From: Tangfeifania diversioriginum
GTDB lineage: Bacteria > Bacteroidota > Bacteroidia > Bacteroidales > Prolixibacteraceae
Length of the DNA: 41,317 bases
Assembly (NCBI GenBank): GCA_945873105.1
Contig: CAMCBW010000046.1
Location: forward strand, 1-41,317
Direction: 5' to 3'
The position numbers and the translations under genes are program-made. This document shows, one piece after another, positions 2,300 to 24,368 of this stretch; the first letter of the stretch is position 1, and every line of letters begins with the position of its first letter. The notes beneath the pieces are model-generated. The model was not told the origin of the DNA. It ran no database searches and saw only the letters and a program-made list of their open reading frames with translations.

Positions 2300-2315
2300 G
2301 GCGAGTGTGTTTGTC

Positions 2316-2323
2316 CAAAATTA
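2316..2323 (-). promoter_or_regulatory. Bacteroidota -7 box for the aldehyde dehydrogenase gene
   Basis: TAATTTTG on the minus strand matches the TAnnTTTG -7 consensus of Bacteroidota housekeeping promoters and ends 16 nt before the ATG. A matching TTTG -33 element is not seen at the expected distance. Confidence 0.55.
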
Positions 2324-2425
2324 GCCAATTTCTGAAATTTAAGGATGGTAATATTCGTTATTGAATTGGGAATACGGTAACTTTATAGGAGATCCAATAA
2401 TATTCGAAAAATGTGTTGAAAATAT

Positions 2426-2657
2426 GCTCCGGAGGAGCGACCTGTTTGTAGAAATGAAGGACAAGAGATAATTAGAGCTCCGGAGGAGCGATCTGTTTGT
2501 AGCTACAATGGCGCAGGTTTGATTCAGAGCTCCGGAGGAGCGATCTGTTTGTAGGAATGAAGGACAAGAGATAATTAGAGCTCCGGAGGAGCGATCTGTT
2601 TGTAGCATCAATGGCGCAGGTTTGATTCAGAGCTCCGGAGGAGCGATCTGTTTGTAG
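2426..2657 (+). repeat. Five-copy array of palindromic REP-like repeats (transposase-associated)
   Basis: Five copies of a 26-nt repeat start at 2426, 2477, 2529, 2580 and 2632. Each begins with the hairpin GCTCC-GGA-GGAGC followed by GAYCTGTTTGTAG. The 25-26-nt spacers alternate between two sequences (one like AATGAAGGACAAGAGATAAT, the other like AATGGCGCAGGTTTGATTC), so the true tandem unit is a dimer of 103 nt. A variant of the first spacer follows copy 5. Spacers are repeated rather than unique, so this is not CRISPR. The array ends about 57 nt before the transposase start, and an inverted copy overlaps the transposase stop codon. That layout matches a REP/RAYT or IS200-like end-hairpin arrangement. 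Confidence 0.85.
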
Positions 2658-2714
2658 GAATGAAAGGCAAGAGAAAAATAGACCCTTCCAGGGTTCACAA
2701 AATCAATACACAAA

Positions 2715-3242
2715 ATGAATGAAAAAATGAGCGTCAGAACGGATAAGCCTAATATTAATCCTAATACCTACATCCAGATCTATATCCAAATTGTCTTTGC
2801 CGTCAAAGGCAGGCAAAATTTTATTGAGGAACGAAACCGTGAAGAACTGCAAAAATATCTGACTGGAATTATCCAAAACAGATCACAAAAATTGTTGGCA
2901 ATTTATTGCATGCCGGATCATGTTCATTTGTTTATTGGGTTAAAACCAACCATGTCGATTTCTGAATTGGTGAAGGAGATTAAGTCCCTTTCTTCTCCGT
3001 TTGTTTCAGGGAAAAAATGGAAATCGGGTAAATTCAGTTGGCAGGAGGGTTTTGGTGCATTCTCCTATTCAAAAAACCAGGTCGATCAGGTAGTGAAATA
3101 CATCCTAAATCAGGAAGACCATCATCGAAAACATACATTCAAAGAAGAATACATCGATTTTTTGCAGAAATTTGAGATTGATTACGAAGAAAAATATTTG
3201 TTCGAATGGTACGATGAACAGGTCGCTCCTCCGGAGCTCTAA
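2715..3242 (+). CDS. Y1/HUH transposase (IS200/IS605 TnpA-like, REP-associated type)
   Basis: A 175-residue single-strand transposase of the Y1 family. The metal-binding HUH motif is H69-V70-H71 in MPDHVHLF, and the likely nucleophile is Tyr129 in VVKYILNQEDHH. Both are intact, so the enzyme may be active. Length fits TnpA/RAYT proteins (about 150-175 aa). The last eight residues (EQVAPPEL) and the stop codon are encoded by an inverted copy of the palindromic repeat that forms the array just upstream (inverted copy at 3217-3237). The gene and its repeats thus form one unit, with hairpins on both sides as IS200/IS605-type ends would be. No TnpB-like partner is present. An alternative start is Met5; the upstream sequence does not decide between them. 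Confidence 0.85.
   Translation: MNEKMSVRTDKPNINPNTYIQIYIQIVFAVKGRQNFIEERNREELQKYLTGIIQNRSQKLLAIYCMPDHVHLFIGLKPTMSISELVKEIKSLSSPFVSGKKWKSGKFSWQEGFGAFSYSKNQVDQVVKYILNQEDHHRKHTFKEEYIDFLQKFEIDYEEKYLFEWYDEQVAPPEL
3217..3237 (-). repeat. Inverted REP-like copy overlapping the transposase 3' end
   Basis: Reverse complement of the hairpin plus the following GACCTGTT of the array repeats (best match to the copy at 2426, which also has GACC). It encodes the transposase C-terminus and closes the putative mobile unit on its right side. Confidence 0.8.
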
Positions 3243-3285
3243 CAATAATGTTATTTTGTGGCCCTGTTCCAGTCTGGAAATTCAA

Positions 3286-3996
3286 CTAATTCACATAATC
3301 TTCCTGTTTCCTATGCTCCTCTTCAACCAATTCATCTGCGACACCGGTCTCAACATCTGCAGAAATCTCTGGAGGAACAACTTCCTCCTCCTTCTTCTCA
3401 TCAAAATGCTGCCGGTAGAAGATAAAGATCGCTACAATTCCTACCGAAATAGAGGCATCGGCAATGTTGAAGACAGGACGGAAGAAGATGAACTCCTGCC
3501 CGGCCCAGAAGGGAAACCAGGAGGGGAAATGGCCTTCTACCAGGGGGAAATAGAACATGTCAACCACTTTGCCCAACAGGAAGCCGTTGTAACCCCCGCC
3601 CTCTGGGAAAAGTGTCGCAACAGTGCCATGACTTTCGTTGAAAATCAAACCGTAAAATGCACTGTCAATCAGGTTGCCGGCCGCTCCGGCAATGATGAGC
3701 GAGAAGCAGACCACCAGTCCGAATGGGATCTCTTTCTTGATCAGCTTCAGGAGGTACCATCCCAATGCGCCGATGGCAGCAATCCGGAAGATGGTTAGGA
3801 AATATTTGCCAATCTCCTTGCCAAACTCAAATCCGAAAGCCATCCCGTTGTTCTCGATGAAATGGATGATGAACCAGTTCTTAAAGACCACGATCTCTTC
3901 GCCCAGCACGAAATGGGTCTTGATGTAGATCTTCAGCACCTGGTCTGCCACCAGGATCAGCAGGATGATGAGTATAGATTTGGTTTTGGTGCTCAT
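3286..3996 (-). CDS. lspA: Lipoprotein signal peptidase (signal peptidase II), downstream copy
   Basis: A 236-residue inner-membrane aspartyl protease that cuts the signal peptide from diacylated prolipoproteins. Four hydrophobic segments are visible. The conserved motifs are ADQVLK, NNGMAFG, AGNLID, VVDMF and FNIADASI. The catalytic pair is Asp146 (VVD) and Asp180 (NIAD), both intact. The start was set at the ATG at 3996 (MSTKTKS) because it aligns exactly with the neighbouring paralogue; longer readings add a non-homologous leader. It carries an acidic cytoplasmic tail of about 45 residues, longer than in the other copy. By hand count 131 of the first 180 residues match the second lspA, without gaps. 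The gap between the copies (205 nt) holds an inverted repeat. Confidence 0.93.
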   Translation of the reverse strand: MSTKTKSILIILLILVADQVLKIYIKTHFVLGEEIVVFKNWFIIHFIENNGMAFGFEFGKEIGKYFLTIFRIAAIGALGWYLLKLIKKEIPFGLVVCFSLIIAGAAGNLIDSAFYGLIFNESHGTVATLFPEGGGYNGFLLGKVVDMFYFPLVEGHFPSWFPFWAGQEFIFFRPVFNIADASISVGIVAIFIFYRQHFDEKKEEEVVPPEISADVETGVADELVEEEHRKQEDYVN

Positions 3997-4057
3997 ATTT
4001 AACCTGACTAAAATTTTTAAAATATATTTTTTGAGTCCAATTCGATTGTTCCATTTT

Positions 4058-4154
4058 TGCCACCAAGGCACCAAGACACCAAAGCTTCACTGAGCGTATT
4101 GGTGTTGAAATTAATTACTTTGTGATCCCTTGGTGACTTGGTGTCTTGGTGGCA
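4058..4154. repeat. Inverted repeat with 8-9-nt CACCAAG units between the lspA copies
   Basis: The left arm (4058-4084) is made of CACCAAG-type units; the right arm (4128-4154) is its reverse complement with about 3 mismatches in 27. The right flank (GTGTCTTGGTGGCAGGAATA) recurs almost unchanged near 10940-10960, so the family is dispersed. It could form a long hairpin in the ileS-lspA transcript. Origin (small non-autonomous element or gene-end hairpin) is unknown. Confidence 0.7.
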
Positions 4155-4201
4155 GGAATACAGAGTCAAAAAGACACGAAGCTCTCTAAGCGGATAATTT
4201 G

Positions 4202-4846
4202 TCAATCTTCACATTGGGATTCCTCCCCCTGTTCAGGCTTTGGCTCCTCCCCAAAATGATGCCGGTAAAAAATAAAGATGGCAAACACCCCGGTGGTAAC
4301 TGCCGAATCGGCAATGTTGAATATGTGGCGGAAGAAGACGAACTCCTGACCACCCCAAAATGGGAACCAACTGGGATAATGGGTCTCGATCATCGGAAAA
4401 TAGAACATATCCACCACCCTGCCCAGCAGGAAGGAGGAGTAACCACCCCCGGTCGGAAATATTGTGGCAACTTCACCAGCGGGATGGTTGAAAATTATTC
4501 CGTAAAATGCACCATCGATCATATTGCCGATTGCTCCGGCAAGGATCAGCGAAAAGCAGGCAATCAGGCCGAAAGGCACCTCCTTTGTCAGCAGCTTTCC
4601 CAGGTACCACACCAATGCCACGATGGCAGCCAAACGGAAAAGGCTGAGCAGATATTTGCCGATTCCATCCCCAAATTCCATCCCGAAGGCCATCCCGTTG
4701 TTCTCTACAAAATGGAGGATGAACCAGTTTTTGAAAACGACGATCTCTTCACCCGGTACAAGGTGCGTTTTGATCCAGATTTTCAGAACCTGGTCGGCCA
4801 GCAATACCAGAAAGATGAGGAGGATGGATTTTTGTCTGTTGCTCAT
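4202..4846 (-). CDS. lspA: Lipoprotein signal peptidase (signal peptidase II), upstream copy
   Basis: A 214-residue signal peptidase II with the same motif order as its neighbour: ADQVLK, NNGMAFG, IGNMID, VVDMFYF and FNIADSAV. The predicted catalytic pair is Asp146 and Asp180, at the same residue numbers as in the downstream copy. It is longer than the usual 160-170 residues of proteobacterial LspA because of an insertion between the third and fourth membrane segments (around residues 120-140 and 155-170), which both copies share. It follows the DksA-like gene by 83 nt in the ileS - dksA-like - lspA order common in Bacteroidota, so this is likely the ancestral copy. Both copies appear functional. 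Confidence 0.93.
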   Translation of the reverse strand: MSNRQKSILLIFLVLLADQVLKIWIKTHLVPGEEIVVFKNWFILHFVENNGMAFGMEFGDGIGKYLLSLFRLAAIVALVWYLGKLLTKEVPFGLIACFSLILAGAIGNMIDGAFYGIIFNHPAGEVATIFPTGGGYSSFLLGRVVDMFYFPMIETHYPSWFPFWGGQEFVFFRHIFNIADSAVTTGVFAIFIFYRHHFGEEPKPEQGEESQCED

Positions 4847-24017: not shown

Positions 24018-24368
24018 TCAAGTTAACAATATTTCTGCTGGGATTTTTAATCCTTTGTACAAGGATTTCACCATTTTGAGGGTCAGCTTTCTTTTGCGAC
24101 CCAATACTTCACTTACCCTGCTTTGACTACCCAAATACTTGACCATATCAGTCTTTGTCATTCCCATCTGCTCCATCCTGAACTTAATCGCCTCAATCGG
24201 ATCAGGAGGAGCTATGGGATAGTGTTTCATTTCATAGGCTTCAAGGATAGTTACCAACAAATCAAGTTCATCTCCTTCTGGTGTATCTCTCTTTGAACCC
24301 CAAAGCAATTCAACCCTTTCAAGTGAGGATAAGTAATCAAGCTCTGTTTTTATAGGTTTTATCTCCAT
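24018..24368 (-). CDS. HigA-like antitoxin (HTH/XRE type), apparently without a functional toxin
   Basis: A 116-residue protein of the HigA type. The N-terminal half has ERVELLWGSKRDTPEGDELDLL and the family-typical YPIAPPDPIEAIKFRMEQMG; the C-terminal half is a helix-turn-helix (MTKTDMVKYLG, then SRVSEVLGRKRKLTLKMVKSL). Such proteins neutralise HigB, a ribosome-dependent mRNA interferase, and repress their own operon. The toxin would be the preceding gene on the same strand; only a wreck of it remains (24371-24501), ending 2 nt before this ATG. The antitoxin is intact and may persist as an orphan repressor. Confidence 0.85.
   Translation of the reverse strand: MEIKPIKTELDYLSSLERVELLWGSKRDTPEGDELDLLVTILEAYEMKHYPIAPPDPIEAIKFRMEQMGMTKTDMVKYLGSQSRVSEVLGRKRKLTLKMVKSLYKGLKIPAEILLT

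Follow-up and report, generated by a model that had tools for sequence, protein, structure and literature searches.

Hairpin repeats flanking a subclass-1.2 Y1 transposase of Tangfeifania diversioriginum: a probable REPtron-like unit of the IS200 type

Elements of the IS200/IS605 group carry strand-specific hairpins with a cleavage site nearby. The 5' guides of these elements, and those of the repetitive extragenic palindromic (REP) sequences of REP-associated tyrosine transposases (RAYTs), are described in PMC8266576. In the portion of PMC3733652 available to us, GTAG repeats come from other phyla, and for the Bacteroidetes only CGTC repeats, without a dedicated transposase, are given. Subclass 1.2 of the TnpA_Y1 transposases is defined by the motifs Y---Q--HH, WQ and DH[IV]H, and PMC6006769 reports for it no REPs and generally no terminal hairpins. 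No published description of repeats for this subclass was found in the open-licence literature searched. The present work concerns a stretch of 41,317 nucleotides from Tangfeifania diversioriginum (assembly GCA_945873105.1, contig CAMCBW010000046.1, positions 1 to 41,317 of the forward strand), hereafter the window, in which an array of hairpin repeats precedes a Y1 transposase gene. This locus is probably a REPtron-like unit of a subclass-1.2 IS200-type Y1 single-strand transposase. Its features are:

2426-2451, plus strand: repeat 1 (26 nt), hairpin GCTCC-GGA-GGAGC followed by 9 nt and GTAG.
2477-2502, plus strand: repeat 2, a 26-nt copy.
2529-2554, plus strand: repeat 3, a 26-nt copy.
2580-2605, plus strand: repeat 4, a 26-nt copy.
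2632-2657, plus strand: repeat 5, a 26-nt copy.
2426-2631, plus strand: two 103-nt dimers (2426-2528 and 2529-2631), each with a spacer A and a spacer B, 96% identical.
2682-2694, minus strand: inverted hairpin ACCCT-TCC-AGGGT between array and gene, tail not intact.
2715-3242, plus strand: gene of a Y1 HUH transposase with subclass 1.2 motifs, 175 aa, recognised by Pfam Y1_Tnp and by the motifs.
3217-3237, minus strand: inverted repeat copy, an exact 21-nt match (hairpin 3225-3237), overlapping the 3' end of the gene.

The five repeats start 51, 52, 51 and 52 nt apart. An earlier note on this DNA had described them as hairpins with two alternating spacers forming a 103-nt dimer upstream of an intact Y1 transposase, and the array agrees with that description. 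In the predicted fold of the 26-mer, a GGA loop caps a 5-bp stem and the tail, with GTAG at its end, is unpaired; the inverted copy at 3217-3237 is devoid of this terminal GTAG. With up to 2 mismatches, GCTCCGGAGGAGC is found 7 times in the window against 1.06 times expected from dinucleotide shuffles; six of these matches are exact and the seventh, at 24200, has 2 mismatches. By these shuffle controls the array and its inverted copy are far beyond chance. The note had placed the array on one side only. This is correct for the five copies upstream of the gene, but the inverted hairpin at 2682-2694 had been missed, and in the same-genus genome G029 repeats lie on both sides of the orthologous gene. 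Hairpins of the 2682-2694 kind are found there, inverted and in several copies, 5' of the gene, and a variant is present in G027. Three other explanations of the array were discarded: a coding role (only a minus-strand open reading frame (ORF), 2339-2611, reads through the repeats), a known RNA family (one match, below threshold and unrelated) and a known defence system (none returned by PADLOC).

The window protein matches Pfam Y1_Tnp (1.2e-24) and contains all the subclass 1.2 motifs: DHVH at residues 68-71, WQ at 109-110 and, within the stretch YILNQEDHH (129-137), Y129, Q133 and HH at 136-137. It passes the NCBIfam IS200 model (72.4 bits versus a cut-off of 55) and fails REP_Tyr_transpos (39.2 versus 80 bits). 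Chains of the ISDra2 transposase are the closest solved structures by sequence. By predicted fold (mean predicted local distance difference test score, pLDDT, of 81.8) the closest are the ISDra2 and IS608 transposases, the RAYT-REP complex 4er8 coming at rank 30. This modelled fold match is supportive but not precise, because the template modelling score is about 0.5 by query length and the root mean square deviation over aligned residues is large (5-16 Å). The protein is 34-58% identical to 35 other aligned members, and its own genome (5.36 Mb) has 6 Y1_Tnp matches, all diverged copies, i.e. a low copy number. The ratio of non-synonymous to synonymous substitution (dN/dS) is 0.11-0.16 among three syntenic orthologues, at a high dS of 1.2-1.6, and selection has therefore maintained the gene in those lineages where it occurs. 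Its behaviour is that of a resident gene of low copy number under purifying selection.

Because hairpin repeats, of different sequences, are also present at four of the five remaining Y1 loci in this genome, related loci were surveyed. The 135 family loci, which include the window locus (L004), are best-scoring matches and not a random sample; all three subclass 1.2 motifs, as written for the search, are present in 123 of them. A second set, from named records, comprises the best 80 of 584 confirmed loci and overlaps the first in some loci (L194 is the G029 locus, L220 a G017 locus and L240 a G105 locus). In 700-nt flanks, a 5-bp hairpin followed by 8-10 nt and RTAG was matched 388 times, at 119 of the 135 family loci, versus 4 times in shuffled flanks and 54 times at two wrong-offset sets combined. 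The flanks scanned amount to 371,332 strand-bases, and the window outside the locus gave 4 matches in 80,434 strand-bases. The offset is 9 in 330 of the 388 matches, and 135 distinct hairpins are represented. Read on the RTAG strand, the triloops of the family loci are GNA in 191 of 324 cases and TNC in 1, the rest being mainly AGC, AGA, ATA and ATC. GNA triloops closed by C-G are unusually stable in DNA, and this would point to which single strand matters. The sequence logo is conditioned on RTAG; when hairpins were picked without reference to TAG, RTAG was found in the conserved tail at 55 of the 99 loci with recurring hairpins, versus 8.7 expected from shuffled tails and 5 in reversed tails. 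In the named-record set (best 80 of 584) the element is present at 65 loci with 189 matches, compared with 17 in distant flanks of about the same length and 29 at two sets of control offsets, and its triloops are GNA in 115 of 175 cases and TNC in 4. Element-bearing loci among these best 80 extend beyond Bacteroidota to Ignavibacteria, Verrucomicrobiota, Desulfonema magnum and two metagenome-assembled genomes, one of the Anaerolineales and one acidobacterial; this set of 80 contains no cyanobacterial subclass-1.2 genes. Scanned alike, 24 of 29 subclass-1.2 loci (85 matches) have the element, versus 5 of 30 class-2 RAYT loci (6 matches), a set in which the Y..NP motif is seen in 28 loci. Hairpins built on a shared plan flank most of the subclass-1.2 members examined.

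Individual loci of the survey show further arrangements. Another Y1 gene of the window's genome (L005, G000:C2) is flanked by GCCCTGAAAGGGC hairpins whose tail does not follow the N9-RTAG plan, and yet another (L006, 1107-1379, G000:C89) has a 5' tandem array of 21-nt period, not hairpin repeats. In Desulfonema magnum (L226), 15 matches, 14 of them of the GCCCCGTAGGGGC type, lie beside a subclass-1.2-like gene; a horizontal transfer of gene plus repeats is possible in this case.

The elements are oriented with respect to the gene. In the 210 of 215 loci covered by this count, the nearest 5' element is on the plus strand for 135 genes, on the minus strand for 24 and unassigned for 51, and the nearest 3' element is on the minus strand for 117, on the plus strand for 38 and unassigned for 55; a separate orientation assignment sets plus on ties. 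Where both sides could be assigned, the nearest elements are inverted, with tails facing the gene on both sides, in 87 of 115 genes. When the left flank was compared with the reverse-complemented right flank of the same gene at 126 of the 135 loci (short flanks were dropped), a score of at least 16 was reached in 59, compared with 16 of 630 for mismatched pairs and 0 of 378 for shuffled ones. Spacing is also regular: of 127 cases in which neighbours on the same strand lie within about 200 nt of each other, 73 have a distance of 50-54 nt. Pairs on one strand separated by 40-75 nt occur at 41 of the 215 loci, 32 of which include a pair at 50-54 nt with unrelated spacers. The ordered two-spacer array, which had seemed to stand out in the window, is accordingly not special, and we have dropped the idea that its order is unique. 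As a spacing of about 52 nt with unrelated spacers occurs widely among loci, the window array is two ordinary units of about 52 nt duplicated as a pair; the 103-nt dimers are read as a tandem duplication of one two-unit segment, which explains the two-spacer order.

The tails of the repeats change with the proteins. Tail and protein distances are correlated (Spearman 0.40, versus at most 0.11 in 500 permutations) at 159 of the 215 loci, those with no offset-9 element, with duplicate genes or with broken or short proteins having been dropped. Transposases at most 0.2 apart in different genomes have tails differing by 2.4/10. Paralogues of the same genome differ in their tails by 5.9/10 at a protein distance of 0.4-0.5 (26 pairs) and by 5.6/10 at 0.5-0.6 (38 pairs), the values for different genomes being 5.3 and 5.8, respectively. 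The repeats track the transposase lineage, not the host genome.

With up to 3 mismatches, the window repeat is present in 11 of 140 family genomes. G029 contains 16 similar copies, 9 at the orthologous locus (contigs C64 and C1) and 7 on five other contigs. The generic core motif is matched 71 times in the window's own genome versus 17 in the control. It gives 1882 matches versus 1120 for the reversed control in the 120 genomes with subclass-1.2 genes, and 125 versus 167 in the 20 genomes without the gene; its excess rises with gene number (Spearman 0.56, uncorrected for relatedness). G139 is a genome with many dispersed copies (134 versus 18 in the control for the generic hairpin core motif) and just two matches to the window protein. 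On contig C17 of the window's genome (L173, G000:C17, 979-9264), six exact copies of the repeat of another transposase of this genome lie on one strand within 8.3 kb, outside long ORFs. Four of them are accompanied by an inverted copy no more than 130 nt away, which recalls REPINs (REP doublets forming hairpins). Three further copies with 3 mismatches are on other contigs of the same genome. The spread of this repeat is strikingly local.

The transposase gene lies between an aldehyde dehydrogenase gene and lspA. The same arrangement is found in G027 of the same genus, and in G029 it is spread over contigs C64 and C1; C1 carries lspA and so very probably completes the orthologous locus. Three genomes of the genus (its own, G027 and G029) have the gene at this site, and four others with a readable site lack it there. 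In G024, G026 and G028 the aldehyde dehydrogenase and lspA genes are adjacent, with one degenerate inverted hairpin kept in G026, and in G030 another sequence separates them; in G025 no aldehyde dehydrogenase was detected at the threshold applied. Comparison of this intergenic region gave neither exact element boundaries nor an empty-site junction, its flanks being judged too diverged by eye. Downstream of the gene, two lspA-like genes stand in tandem on the minus strand (3286-4846); a 38-nt inverted repeat (4053-4090 / 4122-4159, 82% complementary) lies between the two.

The earlier proposal that array and transposase make one REP/RAYT-like unit is sustained by the flank repeats, the RTAG survey, the lineage tracking and the contrast with class 2. 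From the association, strand bias, fixed offset, spacing, lineage tracking, correlation with gene number and purifying selection described above, we infer binding of the repeat, cleavage at RTAG and mobilisation. Most probably the enzyme recognises its cognate repeat in single-stranded form, as a hairpin of only one of the two strands, with a 5-bp stem and often a GNA triloop. Cleavage would occur at or near RTAG, 9 nt 3' of the hairpin, in a geometry that recalls the ends of IS200/IS605 elements. Copies would then spread as inverted pairs and units of about 52 nt, chiefly in the neighbourhood of the gene but at times over longer distances, and tandem arrays such as that of the window would result when recombination or slippage amplifies the units. 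On a wider scale, the chances seem evenly balanced that the subclass-1.2 Y1 transposases of Bacteroidota and several other phyla constitute a third, unreported transposase-REP system, derived from the IS200 branch, in which each enzyme would cut its own strand-specific hairpin-N9-RTAG repeat (typically GNA) at RTAG and thereby spread inverted pairs and 52-nt units.

Several observations weigh against reading the locus as a REPtron-like unit. In the window's own genome the 26-nt repeat, with up to 3 mismatches, is found only at the locus (6 matches; reversed control 0). The earlier note had held that a repeat found nowhere else in the genome and absent next to homologous transposases would speak against its reading; the former is the case for the exact repeat family, and the latter is false. 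The genome-wide excess of the generic motif is modest, with a median of 1.5 per gene-bearing genome and matches exceeding twice the control number in 34 of 120. G074 has 31 motif matches versus 5 in the control and no transposase match at the threshold used; either the repeats outlived the enzyme or the gene was missed. The element is lacking at 16 of the 135 family loci and at 15 of the 80 named loci (best 80 of 584). Long direct flank repeats are more frequent than inverted ones at a score of at least 18 (71 versus 44 of 126), and neither the lineage tracking nor the copy-number correlations are corrected for relatedness. No excision junction or cleavage was observed. Finally, a conserved 5' tetranucleotide beside the hairpin was looked for in the 135 family loci and none was seen; any detailed IS608-like model must explain this lack of a conserved 5' guide.

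Some of these points would also fit another explanation, in which an IS200/IS605-type element once present left the hairpins behind as relics of its ends, the array grew by slippage and recombination only, and the enzyme does not copy repeats. The exact repeat family is confined to the locus in its own genome, recombination alone can explain the dimer duplication, and 9 of the 16 similar repeats of G029 belong to the orthologous locus itself. The distribution of the gene in the genus, present in three genomes and absent in four, with a degenerate hairpin left in G026, may be taken in the same sense. Against relic ends stand the purifying selection on the gene, the strictness of the RTAG offset, the strand specificity of the loops and the cognate tracking seen across many different genes, the larger number of dispersed motif copies in genomes with more genes, and the seven similar copies on five other G029 contigs. 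We regard this explanation as unlikely. Less likely still is that the hairpins work mainly as RNA, as terminators or insulators around the gene, and that the arrays are kept for this reason. The five plus-strand repeats do score as weak terminator-like sites, and 8 such sites are found in 2300-3400 versus a shuffle mean of 1.1. But the repeat tail has no T run, terminators are not characterised by an RTAG at a fixed distance of 9 nt, the nearest elements mostly face their tails inward on both sides, and just 5 of 30 class-2 Y1 loci of the same family have the element.

The inverted copy inside the end of the ORF was reported before as encoding the terminal residues EQVAPPEL and the stop codon; it is present as an exact 21-nt match and codes for most of EQVAPPEL. 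In the G027 orthologue, ...WYD is followed by the stop codon TAA, CAGGTC and the hairpin. The window reads GAA at the position of this TAA, and its ORF continues through the hairpin as EQVAPPEL; G029 has AAA there and reads KRVAPPVL. The two peptides differ much as the DNA repeats differ (GCACC in G029 for GCTCC). Among the 182 unique genes counted (from 215 loci, dropping those with no stop, duplicate genes or no anchor-pattern match), 112 have a hairpin starting at most 60 nt after the stop or inside the ORF end, a count that accepts any GNA or TNC loop and so includes chance hairpins; in 27 of the 112 it begins 6 or 7 nt past the stop. The hairpin overlaps the ORF in 8 of the 182 genes and, according to the script, is wholly coded in 5 of these 8, with the C-termini EQVAPPEL, KRVAPPVL, CVTPSEL, NITPSGF and DAGGIICL. 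L214 also codes its hairpin (AAPTELK), as seen by eye and not reported by the script. The DAGGIICL C-terminus, of another family member (L076, 1180-1668), is coded by a hairpin copy in direct orientation. The simplest reading of the coded C-termini is a stop codon next to the hairpin that is occasionally lost; we infer this direction of change because a stop before the hairpin is the commoner state. The reading of the hairpin as protein is real, but EQVAPPEL most likely arises incidentally, the ORF running on through the neighbouring hairpin at a point where a relative has a stop codon. That it would be a selected part of the protein, for instance autoregulatory or specificity-giving, is very improbable: wholly coded hairpins do recur, but the large majority of examined genes have none, G027 stops directly before its hairpin, the coded residues vary between G000 and G029 in step with the DNA repeat, and residues 168-175 of the window protein are modelled at a pLDDT below 50.

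The locus can now be compared with the described systems. Like class 2 RAYTs (TnpA_REP), it consists of a Y1 gene of low copy number that has palindromic repeats of its own on its flanks, with inverted pairs and some dispersed copies. Class 2 RAYTs have Y---NP, however, where the window protein has YILNQEDHH, and the class 2 subclasses with typical REPs have GT[AG]G at the 5' foot of the hairpin, whereas RTAG lies here about 9 nt 3' of it. As a GT[AG]G foot was found at 0 sites in 29 subclass-1.2 loci and the window tag is 3' of the hairpin, a canonical REP with 5' GTAG was rejected. IS200/IS605 elements (IS608, ISDra2) provide the closest fold and sequence matches, but the locus differs from them in not being multi-copy, in having no conserved 5' guide that we could see and in the arrangement of its repeats in arrays and pairs. 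Subclass 1.1 of this group has high numbers of near-identical copies and Y[IV]ENQ with W[TS], in contrast to the diverged copies, YILNQ and WQ seen here. The IS200/IS605 elements and RAYT REPs of PMC8266576 have 5' guide tetranucleotides, unlike the hairpins surveyed here, beside which no conserved one was seen. With the GTAG- and CGTC-tagged REP superfamilies, as presented in the available portion of PMC3733652, the repeats share short palindromes, a terminal tetranucleotide tag and partial clustering. The locus agrees with TnpA_Y1 subclass 1.2 in its Y---Q--HH, WQ and DHVH motifs, its Bacteroidota setting and its low copy number; unlike in the published account, hairpin repeats flank most members examined. 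Because membership of the subclass is protein-defined, we read these repeats as correcting its description. This would place a subclass described without REPs among the domesticated transposases with cognate repeats, and would supply its likely substrate and cleavage site. It would also offer an independent case for studying the origin of REP-type repeats from insertion-sequence ends and the reasons for which hosts retain the enzyme, and the repeat definition (5-bp stem, typically a GNA triloop, N9, RTAG) is short enough for genome annotation and bench tests. By its protein the locus belongs to subclass 1.2, by its arrangement it is REPtron-like, and by the anatomy of its repeats it is neither a class 2 GTAG-foot REP nor a multi-copy IS200 element.
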